NCBI RefSeq assembly: GCF_014252335.1
Contig: NZ_CP059218.1
Coordinates: 23,564 to 87,563, forward strand
DNA from: Blattabacterium cuenoti
GTDB taxonomy: Bacteria > Bacteroidota > Bacteroidia > Flavobacteriales > Blattabacteriaceae
Length of the DNA stretch: 64,000 nucleotides
Reading direction: 5' to 3'
Shown: one piece after another, positions 8,512 to 47,104 of the stretch
Position numbering within the stretch: the first letter of the stretch is position 1
How the letters are laid out: the number at the start of each line of letters is the position of its first letter
Translations under genes and position numbers: made by a program
Notes under the pieces: model-generated
Databases searched by the model: none
What the model was told of the DNA's origin: nothing
What the model saw: the letters and a program-made list of their open reading frames with translations, nothing else

Positions 8512-8844
8512 ATGTATTTTTCATTAATTTATTGTACTTTATTTGGCACATTTGGAACAGCAGAAATTGTTGTTATAGTTATTCTTGCTTTATTACTTTT
8601 TGGTGGGAAAAAAATACCAGAATTAATGAGAGGATTAGGAATAGGATTAAAAGAATTTAAAAAAGCTTCTAATGATAATTATGAAAATAATAATAATGAT
8701 AAATTAAAATCTGAATCAGAAACAACATTACATAATAATGATAAATTAAAATCTGAATCAGAAACAACATTAAATAATAATGATAAATTAAAATCTGAAT
8801 CAGAAACAACATTACATAATAATGATAAATTAAAATCTGAATAA
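8512..8844 (+). CDS. tatA: Sec-independent protein translocase TatA/E with a repeat-bearing tail
   Basis: TatA forms the pore-like component that exports folded proteins carrying a twin-arginine signal. The single transmembrane helix is at about residues 15-31, followed by the [14 protein letters not shown] hinge and an amphipathic helix ending at KEFKKA, all typical. The remaining half of the 110-aa protein is a hydrophilic tail made of a 14-residue unit ([14 protein letters not shown]) repeated 3.6 times. The probable client is ActB (34796-37681), whose N-terminus has an RRDFLK motif. TatC is not in the window. ATG at 8512 is chosen; the N-terminus before the helix is slightly longer than usual. 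Confidence 0.9.
8692..8841 (+). repeat. 42-bp tandem repeat inside tatA (3.6 copies)
   Basis: Three 42-bp units at 8692-8733, 8734-8775 and 8776-8817 are followed by a partial fourth unit at 8818-8841 that runs into the stop codon. The units are nearly identical at DNA level; the visible change is CAT versus AAT at the end of unit 2, giving ...TTLN in place of ...TTLH. The period is a multiple of three, so copy-number change keeps the frame. Confidence 0.97.
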
Positions 8845-24219: not shown

Positions 24220-25392
24220 ATGAATTTATATGAATTCCAAGGACGAGATATTTTAACATCATTTTCAATTTCTGTTCCTTATGGGGTCATTGTACAAACA
24301 ACAGAACAAGCTATCAATGCTGCACAAATTATTTTCAAAAACACAAAAACACAATCTATTGTAATAAAAGCTCAAATATTAGCTGGAGGTAGAGGTAAAA
24401 GTGGAGGAATATTAGTAGCAAAATCATTGGAAGATGTATATACAAAGTCTCAGTTTTTATTAAACAAATATTTAATTACCTCTCAAACTGCAAAACAAGG
24501 TGAATTAGTAACAAAACTTCTTATTACTGAAAATATATACAATCATAATGATAATATATATAGACCTAAAGAATACTACATAGCAATATCTTTCAATAGA
24601 GAAATTGAAAAAAATATAATATTATATTCTCAACAAGGTGGAATAAATATTGAAACAAATTATGATCATCACATATTTCAAGAAGTAATAGATCCAGGAT
24701 TAGGCATATTAGAATTTCAATATAGAAAAATTGGATACCACTTAGGTATAGACATAAAAAAATTTAAATTTTTTTTATATAATCTTTATAAAGCATATGT
24801 ATTATATAATGCTATATTATTAGAAATTAATCCATTAATTTATAATAATCATAATATTATTGCATTAGATTCAAAAATTACATTAGATAATAATGCTTTA
24901 TTTCGCATTAAAAAAATTTTTAAAACATATCAAGAAACATATTTGGACAAAAATCATAATATTAATTTTATTAAACTTGAAGGAAATGTAGGATGTATGG
25001 TAAATGGTGCTGGTTTAGCAATGGCAACTATGGATTTGATTAAATCTTGTGGAGGCAGTCCATCCAATTTTTTAGATATTGGTGGAGATGCGAATCAAGA
25101 AAAAGTTCAAAAAGCATTTGATTTAATTTTAAAAGATACTTCAGTACAAGTAATTTTAATAAATATATTCGGAGGAATTGTTAGATGTGATGATGTTGTA
25201 CACGGAATCATAAATGCATATAATGAATATATTAAAACAAATAATAAATATCCAAAAATAGTATTTCGTTTACAAGGAACAAATGCTAAAATAGCAAAAG
25301 AAATACTATATAAAAATAAACAATTTCCTATTTTTTATACTTCTACTTTAAAAGAAGCATCTAATAAAATACAAAAATTATTATCAAGTTAA
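24220..25392 (+). CDS. sucC: succinyl-CoA ligase (ADP/GDP-forming) beta subunit
   Basis: The beta subunit carries the ATP-grasp fold that couples succinyl-CoA cleavage to nucleotide phosphorylation. The 390-aa protein begins MNLYEFQGRDIL, as in the family, with KAQILAGGRGKSGG in the nucleotide-binding region, the metal-site NPL in LLEINPLI, and the C-terminal ligase region GNVGCMVNGAGLAMATMD and NIFGGIVRCD. Length is normal. The alpha subunit sucD is not next to it. It is followed by dnaX after 18 bases. Confidence 0.97.
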   Translation: MNLYEFQGRDILTSFSISVPYGVIVQTTEQAINAAQIIFKNTKTQSIVIKAQILAGGRGKSGGILVAKSLEDVYTKSQFLLNKYLITSQTAKQGELVTKLLITENIYNHNDNIYRPKEYYIAISFNREIEKNIILYSQQGGINIETNYDHHIFQEVIDPGLGILEFQYRKIGYHLGIDIKKFKFFLYNLYKAYVLYNAILLEINPLIYNNHNIIALDSKITLDNNALFRIKKIFKTYQETYLDKNHNINFIKLEGNVGCMVNGAGLAMATMDLIKSCGGSPSNFLDIGGDANQEKVQKAFDLILKDTSVQVILINIFGGIVRCDDVVHGIINAYNEYIKTNNKYPKIVFRLQGTNAKIAKEILYKNKQFPIFYTSTLKEASNKIQKLLSS

Positions 25393-25410: not shown

Positions 25411-26940
25411 ATGATGATTCAAAAAGTTTGTTCTTATATTAGACTAACTAAAAAATATGAACCTACTACATGGGAAAACATTATTGGACAAAAAGACATT
25501 GTATATATTTTAAAACATGCTGTAAAAAAATGTGTTTTGTCAAAAATTTTATTATTTATTGGAATAAAAGGAATTGGTAAAAATACATGTGCCAAAATTT
25601 TAATTAACGAATTATCATCATCAAATATTGTTCATAAATTTGAATTAAATGGTACCATAAAATATTCTATTAATTATTTAAATTCAATTATTAATAAAAT
25701 ATATAATAATGTAACAGAAAACAAATGTTTGATAATACAAAATATTAATGATGTTTCTACAAATTTTATAGATATTATATTTCCAATGTTTTATAATATT
25801 CCATTAAATATGTTATTAATTATTTGCGCAAATAAAATTAATAAAATTGTAGAATATATTATGTCATCATTATATTGTCAAACATATGAATTTAATCCAA
25901 TTTCTATAAAAGACAATTTTAATCATTTAAAAAATATTTCTAATAAAGAATGTATAGAAATAGATAATGAAACTTTATTGTCTATTTCTAAATATGGAAA
26001 TGGATCTTTAATGAATTCTATGAACCAACTAGATAAATTATATTTTCATACTATTTTAAAGCACAAAATCTCTAAAAAATTAATTTTAAATAGATTAGGA
26101 ATATTAGATACTATTTATTATTTTAAAATAATTGATTATTTGTTAAAAAATAAAATTTATGAGTTTATAATGTTATTAGATAACATAATCAAAATTAATA
26201 TTAGTAGTATACTATTTATAAAAGGATTTATTAAACATTTTAGAATGTTATTAATTTCTAAATATTCTCATTTGAATTCTCTTTTAAAAGACAAAAATAA
26301 TCTTAAATTTTATATTCAACAATCCAAAATGCTATCTTCATTATTTATAATAGATAGTTTAAAAATGTTTTGTCAAATAGAACATAAATTATATGATTTA
26401 AGAATACAAAATGTATTATATGATAATAAACATTATTATAAATTAATTGAAACCAAGATTTTATCATTTTTTTTGAAAAAAAAAAACAACTATTATAGTA
26501 ATCATGAATCTAAAAATAAAAATTATAAATATTTTAAATATTTTTTAGAACAAAATTGGAAAAGTTTTATAGATAAAAATTCAAACAAAATTAATCCTTA
26601 TTATTTGAATATATTAAAAAATGAAATCCAATTTTATATATTAAATAATAAAATTGTTTTAATAAAACCTTCTATTATAAAAGAGAAAGATTTTTTAGTA
26701 ATACAAAAATATTTTACAGAAAAATTACAAAAAAAATGTAATAACCAATATTTTGAATTTGAAATTTTAACTAAAAAATTAGAAAATTTTTCAGTTGAAG
26801 AATATAATATGTTATCAAAAAAAAATGATAATATTAATCAATTAATAGATAGGTTAAAGTTAAAAATTAAATCACCTTGTTCTCTTCCTCCACCAATTAC
26901 TTATAATTCTATCAAACCTAAAATTAAAGATAATTATTAA
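25411..26940 (+). CDS. dnaX: DNA polymerase III gamma/tau-like subunit with eroded ATPase
   Basis: DnaX is the motor subunit of the clamp loader. The opening KYEPTTWENIIGQKDIVYIL and the overall helical layout identify the family. The 509-aa protein has degraded catalytic motifs: Walker A reads GIKGIGKNT (51-59, Asn after the lysine), the zinc-binding cysteine cluster after it is gone, the Walker B DEVH position reads NINDV, and the arginine-finger SRC motif reads SSLYC. The C-terminal half is poorly conserved and lysine/asparagine rich. The reading frame is intact, so a structural clamp-loader role is possible. Confidence 0.82.
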   Translation: MMIQKVCSYIRLTKKYEPTTWENIIGQKDIVYILKHAVKKCVLSKILLFIGIKGIGKNTCAKILINELSSSNIVHKFELNGTIKYSINYLNSIINKIYNNVTENKCLIIQNINDVSTNFIDIIFPMFYNIPLNMLLIICANKINKIVEYIMSSLYCQTYEFNPISIKDNFNHLKNISNKECIEIDNETLLSISKYGNGSLMNSMNQLDKLYFHTILKHKISKKLILNRLGILDTIYYFKIIDYLLKNKIYEFIMLLDNIIKINISSILFIKGFIKHFRMLLISKYSHLNSLLKDKNNLKFYIQQSKMLSSLFIIDSLKMFCQIEHKLYDLRIQNVLYDNKHYYKLIETKILSFFLKKKNNYYSNHESKNKNYKYFKYFLEQNWKSFIDKNSNKINPYYLNILKNEIQFYILNNKIVLIKPSIIKEKDFLVIQKYFTEKLQKKCNNQYFEFEILTKKLENFSVEEYNMLSKKNDNINQLIDRLKLKIKSPCSLPPPITYNSIKPKIKDNY

Positions 26941-26978: not shown

Positions 26979-28997
26979 ATGAATGATGACAATACCATAT
27001 TTGGAATAGAAAAAGATAGACTATCAGGATTGAATTATTATATAAATATCAATTCCATGAAAAATAAAACTCCAATATTAGATAATTTTGGAAAAAATCT
27101 AAATATAATTGCATTTGAAGGAAAATTAGATCCTATCATTGGCAGAGAACATGAATTAGAAAGAATTGCGCAAATTTTAAGTAGAAGAAAAAAAAATAAT
27201 CCATTACTAATAGGTGAACCAGGTGTTGGAAAAACAGCAATAGCTGAAGGATTAGCATTAAAAATTGTTCAAAAAAAAATTTCCAGAGTTTTATATAATA
27301 AAAGAATTGTAGTACTTGATATAGCAAGTATAGTAGCTGGAACTAAATATAGAGGCCAATTTGAAGAAAGAATGAAAACCATAATTTCTGAAGTAGAAAA
27401 AAATACTAATTTAATTCTTTTTATAGATGAAATACATACTATCATAGGTGCAGGAGGAACAACTGGATCTTTAGATGCCTCAAATATATTAAAACCAGCT
27501 TTAGCTACAGGTAATATACAATGTATAGGAACTACAACATTAAATGAATATAGACAATATATAGAAAAAGATGGTGCATTAGAAAGAAGATTTCAAAAAA
27601 TTATAATTCAACCATCGACAGAAAAAGAAACTATTGAAATATTAAAAAAAATTAAAATTAAATATGAGGTATATCATAATGTAATTTATACAGAATCAGC
27701 AATTAATGCTTGTGTAAATTTAACATCTAGATATATTATTGATCGTTATTTACCAGATAAAGCCATTGATGCATTAGATGAAGCTGGTGCTTACGTACAT
27801 ATGAAAAATATAAAAGTACCACAAAAAATCCTTAATTTAGAAAAATTACTTGATAATATACAAAAAGAAAAATATCAAGCAGTAAAAAATCAACACTATG
27901 AAAAAGCAGCTAATATAAGAGATAAAGAAAAAGAAATTAAAGAATACTTACTTAAAGATCAAATATTATGGAGTGAACTTATTAAAAAAAATAAAGATAT
28001 AGTGTCTGAAACACATGTAAAAAAAGTAGTATCTATGATGAGTGGTATTCCAGTTAATAAAATAGATCAATCTGAATTTACACAATTAAATAATTTAATT
28101 TCTTTATTAAAAACTAAAGTAATAGGACAAGATCATGCAATAGAAAAAATTGTTAACTCTATACGAATCAATAAATCTGGATTAAAAGATCCTAATTCTC
28201 CAATAGGATCTTTTATTTTTTTAGGACCTACTGGAGTTGGCAAAACTCATTTAGCCAAAGAATTTACAAAAGAAATATTTGGATCAGAAGATTGTCTAAT
28301 ACGTATTGATATGAGTGAATATATGGAAAAATTTTCTATGTCTAAATTAATTGGATCACCTCCAGGATATATTGGTTATGAAGAAGGTGGTCAATTAACA
28401 GAAATACTACGTCGTAGACCATATTGTGTAATTTTATTTGATGAAATTGAAAAAGCTCATCATGATATTTTGAATATTTTATTACAAATTTTAGATTATG
28501 GATATATCACAGATAGTTTAGGAAGAAAAATAAATTTTAGAAATACTATGATTATTTTTACGTCTAATCAAAATACAAATCAATTTAATAGAACCGAAAT
28601 TGGATTTTCCAATATAACAAAACAATTAAATGAATCTAAATTTGCATTACACAATATGTTATCTCCAGAATTTATAAATAGAATAGATGATATTATTATT
28701 TTTAATCATTTAACATATAAAAATATTGTTAAAATTACATCGATAGAATTAGAAAAAATAAAATATACTTTACTTGAACTAGGATATCATTTAAATATTT
28801 CTTCAGAAACACAAAAGTTTATTCAAATTCAAGGATTTGATAAAAAATTTGGTGCAAGACCACTAAAAAGAGCTATCAATAGCTTAATTAAAAATCCAAT
28901 TTCAGAATATATTATGAAAGGAACTATACAATATGGAAATATTATTCAATTAGTAATGAATAAAAGTAAAAATATTATTAAAATTAAAATTAAATAA
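26979..28997 (+). CDS. clpC: ClpC-type AAA+ unfoldase lacking the N-terminal Clp repeat domain
   Basis: ClpC unfolds substrates for ClpP. Both AAA+ modules are intact: Walker A at 79-86 (GEPGVGKT) and 416-423 (GPTGVGKT), with Walker B in LILFIDEIH and VILFDEIEKAH. The middle segment (about 300-320) resembles a UVR-type motif (YEKAANIRDKEKEI), which points to ClpC rather than ClpA or ClpB. An IGF tripeptide in the second module fits ClpP docking. At 672 aa it is about 150 residues shorter than usual: the protein starts just before the TPILDNFGKNLN linker, so the double Clp-N adaptor domain is missing. Only 38 bases separate it from dnaX. Confidence 0.92.
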   Translation: MNDDNTIFGIEKDRLSGLNYYININSMKNKTPILDNFGKNLNIIAFEGKLDPIIGREHELERIAQILSRRKKNNPLLIGEPGVGKTAIAEGLALKIVQKKISRVLYNKRIVVLDIASIVAGTKYRGQFEERMKTIISEVEKNTNLILFIDEIHTIIGAGGTTGSLDASNILKPALATGNIQCIGTTTLNEYRQYIEKDGALERRFQKIIIQPSTEKETIEILKKIKIKYEVYHNVIYTESAINACVNLTSRYIIDRYLPDKAIDALDEAGAYVHMKNIKVPQKILNLEKLLDNIQKEKYQAVKNQHYEKAANIRDKEKEIKEYLLKDQILWSELIKKNKDIVSETHVKKVVSMMSGIPVNKIDQSEFTQLNNLISLLKTKVIGQDHAIEKIVNSIRINKSGLKDPNSPIGSFIFLGPTGVGKTHLAKEFTKEIFGSEDCLIRIDMSEYMEKFSMSKLIGSPPGYIGYEEGGQLTEILRRRPYCVILFDEIEKAHHDILNILLQILDYGYITDSLGRKINFRNTMIIFTSNQNTNQFNRTEIGFSNITKQLNESKFALHNMLSPEFINRIDDIIIFNHLTYKNIVKITSIELEKIKYTLLELGYHLNISSETQKFIQIQGFDKKFGARPLKRAINSLIKNPISEYIMKGTIQYGNIIQLVMNKSKNIIKIKIK

Positions 28998-45581: not shown

Positions 45582-47104
<1,523 letters not shown>

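Follow-up and report, generated by a model that had tools for sequence, protein, structure and literature searches.

What does a DnaX protein do once it has lost the residues with which it hydrolyses ATP? The gene that raises this question lies in a 64,000-nucleotide stretch, here called the window, of the 568-kb genome of the cockroach symbiont Blattabacterium cuenoti, whose chromosome is a single contig of 567,897 bp. In E. coli, DnaX has two jobs, ATP-driven clamp loading and, as tau, the tying together of polymerases, and these are hard to separate in the living cell. The preliminary description of the window had proposed that the ATPase of this protein is apparently dismantled, and that it may survive as a scaffold for delta, delta-prime and the polymerase, so that clamp loading may work with a reduced or altered motor. 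The features discussed below are listed in Table 1.

Table 1. Features of the dnaX locus, in window coordinates.
Feature	Position	Strand	Remarks
sucC, conserved upstream neighbour of dnaX (synteny marker)	24220..25392	+	
dnaX ORF, hydrolysis-dead DnaX (AAA+, collar and C-terminal domain)	25411..26940	+	509 aa
Walker A	25561..25587	+	GIKGIGKNT; Mg position Thr/Ser replaced by Asn58; P-loop G51/G54/G56/K57 genus-invariant
Walker B strand	25729..25755	+	LIIQNINDV; D replaced by Q110, catalytic E by N111
Sensor-1 region	25828..25833	+	TT replaced by A140-N141
SRC arginine-finger position	25870..25878	+	reads LYC; R replaced by Y155; two-residue insertion just upstream
Sensor-2 motif	26002..26022	+	G-S-L-M-N-S-M; Arg replaced by M201, Asp by N202
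Collar (domain III), oligomerisation domain	26047..26445	+	conserved; in the piece kept by G021
C-terminal domain	26536..26880	+	homologous to the Flavobacteriales DnaX C-terminal domain (hhalign probability 95%, E 5e-8)
clpC-like AAA+ protease subunit, conserved downstream neighbour of dnaX (synteny marker)	26979..28997	+	

The window protein matches the DnaX profiles TIGR02397 (E 3e-32, 112 bits) and PRK14971 (E 4e-36, 125 bits), in both cases below the cut-off (250 and 685 bits, respectively); most other Blattabacterium DnaX proteins also miss the TIGR02397 cut-off. When a profile was built from 24 Blattabacterium DnaX proteins, the E. coli gamma/tau chains matched it with E 1e-39. The AlphaFold model of the window protein, made from a ten-sequence alignment, has a mean pLDDT of 71.9, and the predicted structure superposes on the gamma chains of the E. 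coli clamp loader (Z 29.8, 3.5 A over 341 residues). The gene order sucC-dnaX-clpC is kept across the genus. By homology, by the domain order AAA+, lid, collar and C-terminal domain, and by its conserved locus, the protein belongs to the DnaX family.

A profile search of the whole genome found no second dnaX. The other matches in that search are a 329-aa frame that reads as RuvB, and larger AAA+ or Clp-type frames. The possibility that the window protein is in fact delta-prime (HolB) was also rejected: a delta-prime profile from sister genera matches nothing in this genome, where the sole match to PF13177 is one larger AAA+ frame.

The ATPase motifs were compared between 46 Blattabacterium DnaX proteins, four of them represented by the N-terminal part of a frame-split gene, and those of 22 free-living Flavobacteriales. 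The three glycines and the lysine of the P-loop are present in 46/46 Blattabacterium proteins, and are invariant in the relatives as well. At the Walker A Thr position, all 22 relatives have Thr, whereas Blattabacterium has Asn in 41 proteins, Ser in four and His in one. Within the genus, the Walker B Asp is kept in only 1/46 and the Glu in 7/46, the sensor-2 Arg in none, and the SRC Arg in 27/46, the window strain having Tyr at this position. When columns are ranked by conservation, the P-loop residues fall in the top 5%, and the Walker B Glu, sensor 1 and the SRC Arg lie below the median. The Walker, SRC and sensor-2 motifs are intact both in the free-living relatives and in the reduced sister genera. 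Where an active clamp-loader ATPase has GK[TS], DE, a sensor-2 Arg and an SRC Arg, the window protein has GKN, QN, M and Y.

The hydrolysis machinery has been lost by the whole genus, and the P-loop has been retained. Because the motif losses are common to the genus while the P-loop is invariant in 46/46 proteins, this pattern is more than chance. The loss of the ATPase has gone far in the window strain, where SRC has disappeared as well. The dismantling seen in the single sequence is thus borne out, and the alignment with the 22 relatives makes it clear that the motifs are truly lost rather than intact but shifted. One of the signs originally listed does not stand: the zinc-binding cysteine module is missing from 16/22 free-living Flavobacteriales too. 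Nucleotide binding by the P-loop has probably survived, with the nucleotide in a structural role. The Asn at the Walker A magnesium position is a substitution that we take to resemble the Ras S17N mutant.

The partners of DnaX in the clamp loader were sought in 49 Blattabacterium genomes, using TIGR01128 for delta and PF13177 for delta-prime. In both searches the only matches were the dnaX frame or larger AAA+ and Clp-type frames. Delta is found in sister-genus genomes (G076, G090, G077, G078, G072 and G073). A second delta-prime profile was built from seven sister-genus delta-prime proteins; it gives 380–590 bits for the sisters and at most 40 bits in Blattabacterium, where it always recovers the dnaX frame, and a divergent but still present delta-prime is rejected on this basis. 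Blattabacterium encodes DnaX but neither delta nor delta-prime. Since the two subunits are not encoded, DnaX cannot serve as their scaffold; the other part of that suggestion, a scaffold for the polymerase alone, is plausible.

The beta clamp itself (dnaN) is present, though divergent, in 41/49 genomes. It is deleted in the remaining eight (G009, G010, G017, G020, G021, G026, G029 and G063). In seven of these the deletion is clean, between pdxH and pheT, and in G026 this is seen on the pheT side only. Five of the eight keep an intact dnaX, a distribution that needs two changes on a Blattabacterium tree built from sucC and clpC. The reverse arrangement, dnaN kept and dnaX gone, is found in G022, and in G020 both are missing. 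dnaN is under purifying selection in most pairs of genomes (omega 0.10–0.22), and because beta is still under selection there, some clamp function persists in most genomes. In the pair that includes the window strain dnaN is relaxed (omega 0.53, 2dlnL 6.4). The beta protein of the window strain (L249, 4159–5340) reaches just 51 bits, where the cut-off is 138.

DnaE (Pol III alpha) is present with a strong match in every Blattabacterium genome. The internal clamp-binding motif is absent from 37/37 Blattabacterium DnaE proteins examined. Sister genera have it as QASLF (G076) or QCSLF (G090), in the same context as QADMF of E. coli DnaE. On the side of the clamp, the C-terminal VMP of beta has become IMS in the aligned Blattabacterium sequences with an intact C-terminus. 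These changes fit a polymerase-clamp link that has been lost or rebuilt in the genus. A patch of DnaE at residues 551–595 (G076 numbering) is conserved mainly in dnaN-bearing genomes, a contrast that is confounded by long branches (loci L250, L252, L261–L267 and other dnaE loci). The proposal of clamp loading by a reduced motor is made doubtful by the missing motif in DnaE, and by the five lineages that keep DnaX without dnaN.

The C-terminal domain of the window protein is modelled as alpha-alpha-beta-beta-alpha-beta, with a pLDDT of 80.7. An hhalign comparison with domain V of E. coli tau gave no sequence match, and the comparison with the domain V structure 2aya gave a weak fold match (Foldseek E 0.58). 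E. coli tau contacts DnaB and Pol III alpha through domains IV and V, and it is the C-terminal domain that binds alpha (PMC11470591). On the basis of homology and domain retention, we infer that the Blattabacterium protein oligomerises, and that its C-terminal domain tethers DnaE.

We propose that Blattabacterium DnaX is a hydrolysis-dead, tau-like polymerase scaffold and not a clamp loader, a reading to which we assign a probability of roughly 0.6. The clamp loader was dismantled in the Blattabacterium ancestor, as the genus-wide absence of delta, delta-prime and the hydrolysis residues shows. DnaX was not freed from selection. The AAA+ fold, its P-loop occupied by nucleotide as a structural ligand, would hold the DnaX subunits together along with the collar, and the C-terminal domain would tether DnaE at the fork. 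The beta clamp would no longer be loaded through an ATP cycle, as suggested by the loss of motifs, the absent partners, the loss of the clamp motif in DnaE and the fact that dnaX has outlasted dnaN. Some lineages later dropped the ATPase half (G021) or the entire gene (G020 and G022). A wider claim is that this represents a stable intermediate replisome, with a DnaX that lacks ATPase and both delta subunits (five lineages lack the clamp too) and that is selected as a polymerase scaffold, the tau function having been split from clamp loading; this we regard as an even bet.

The best of the alternatives, which we nevertheless consider unlikely, is some residual handling of the clamp: a DnaX homo-oligomer would bind nucleotide and, with no hydrolysis and neither delta nor delta-prime, assist in opening or positioning beta. 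The invariant P-loop, the 27/46 proteins with an SRC Arg, and the selected dnaN of 41/49 genomes are all in keeping with this, as is the observation that a clamp loader takes on its clamp-gripping arrangement upon ATP binding and lets the clamp go upon hydrolysis (PMC3331839). However, both delta subunits are missing, DnaE has lost its clamp motif, beta has IMS in place of VMP, the P-loop and open frame persist in five lineages with no clamp to handle, and G022 has the clamp without DnaX.

The polymerase scaffold reading has to accommodate the distribution of constraint within the protein. In most pairs, constraint on DnaX is strongest in the pseudo-ATPase half, and a faster ATPase half in dnaN-less lineages was not seen on terminal branches. 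A purely C-terminal scaffold leaves part of this unexplained. The same observations would suit an AAA+ fold that has taken on a new task outside the replisome and unconnected with polymerase scaffolding, such as structural binding of nucleic acids; this is improbable given that the protein retains a C-terminal domain with homology to the one in free-living DnaX, and that G021 retains this domain together with the collar. In G021, which has no dnaN, the ATPase half contains 19 stops in 205 codons, and the collar and C-terminal domain contain none in 255 codons, where the other two frames have 27 and 35 stops. The latter stretch forms a free-standing ORF of 255 codons (L142, 3009–3773) downstream of the decayed ATPase half, with a possible GTG start.

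Selection was measured as omega by pairwise maximum likelihood (GY94). For dnaX, omega is 0.26 between the window strain and its sister G034 (2dlnL 35.5 against omega=1) and 0.14–0.33 in eight other pairs; across all pairs it ranges from 0.03 to 0.33, and omega=1 is rejected in every pair. The neighbouring genes sucC and clpC have omega 0.02–0.15, and dnaX is higher than both in nearly every pair. The dnaN-less pairs G009–G010 and G017–G029 reject omega=1 with 2dlnL of 121 and 44, dS being saturated and the omega value itself unreliable. When neutral evolution was simulated at dS 0.22, the window dnaX acquired about 24 stops in each lineage and 0/500 runs stayed stop-free; the real gene has none. 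Selection still preserves dnaX in most genomes, in agreement with what the preliminary description had suggested from the long open frame.

The gene is intact in 42/49 Blattabacterium genomes. It is lost entirely in G020 and G022, and in G003, G023 and G061 (L133, L135 and L134) its frame is shifted at an A11 run that the three share, located in the linker between the collar and the C-terminal domain. Transcriptional slippage at this run could give short gamma-like and long tau-like products. Similar dnaX frameshifts have been reported in Blochmannia (PMC3017870). As dnaX is absent or broken in these few lineages, DnaX is dispensable there. The notion of a functionless relic on its way to a pseudogene, its open frame being no more than a lag, takes some encouragement from such losses, from an omega above those of sucC and clpC and from the relaxed beta of the window strain, but is strongly disfavoured by omega values that lie far below 1 in all pairs, the missing 24 stops, the intact gene in most of a diverse genus, and a G021 remnant in which just one half is clean.

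It is useful to compare the polymerase scaffold that we propose with known systems. With respect to DnaX gamma/tau of E. coli and of free-living Flavobacteriales (TIGR02397), the AAA+ domain, lid and collar are orthologous and the C-terminal domain is homologous to that of the Flavobacteriales, but Blattabacterium has neither the hydrolysis residues nor delta and delta-prime, and the window protein scores less than half of the family cut-off. Inactive clamp-loader subunits are familiar from the E position of eukaryotic RFC and from bacterial delta-prime, in which the AAA+ fold is likewise kept without hydrolysis; at the eukaryotic E site nucleotide is bound but no catalysis takes place (PMC3331839). 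These subunits, however, act beside active ATPases, whereas in Blattabacterium the sole clamp-loader subunit is an inactive orthologue of DnaX, and not of delta-prime.

The DnaX proteins of reduced sister symbionts (G072, G073, G088 and G090, with genomes of about 300 kb) come from the same family and the same gene, also in tiny genomes, and are the mirror image of the Blattabacterium protein: GKT, DE, SRC and RD are intact, and the C-terminal domain has been dropped (343–363 aa). A mirror image of another kind is seen in the sister symbiont genus g23 (G078 and G077; L212 and L213), which encodes delta, delta-prime and beta and has no dnaX match. Clamp-less symbionts, namely Carsonella and the 200-kb genus g24, share with Blattabacterium the loss of holA and holB, and with some Blattabacterium the loss of dnaN. 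From Carsonella dnaX is missing too (PMC2175510), and dnaX, holA, holB and dnaN are all absent from g24, whereas most Blattabacterium keep dnaX under selection.

The whole genus thus appears to have dropped clamp loading yet kept the DnaX protein. If this is true, a replisome can shift stepwise toward the condition of the smallest symbionts, which replicate without a clamp, and these proteins would provide a natural separation of function for testing tau scaffolding. An annotation of dnaX in a reduced genome is not the same thing as a working clamp loader. In the literature searched we found no paper on the active site of Blattabacterium DnaX, and the gene losses themselves may have been reported already, the likeliest place being the study of Blattabacterium gene loss by Kinjo et al. 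(2021).

It is worth adding two observations on repeats elsewhere in the window. The end of a TatA-like gene is a near-perfect 42-bp tandem repeat (8690–8842) with 3.6 copies and a 98% match, which encodes repeats of a 14-residue unit. A cysS-like gene contains a perfect TAC microsatellite of 11.3 copies (46652–46685), which encodes a threonine run and is unusual in a reduced genome.
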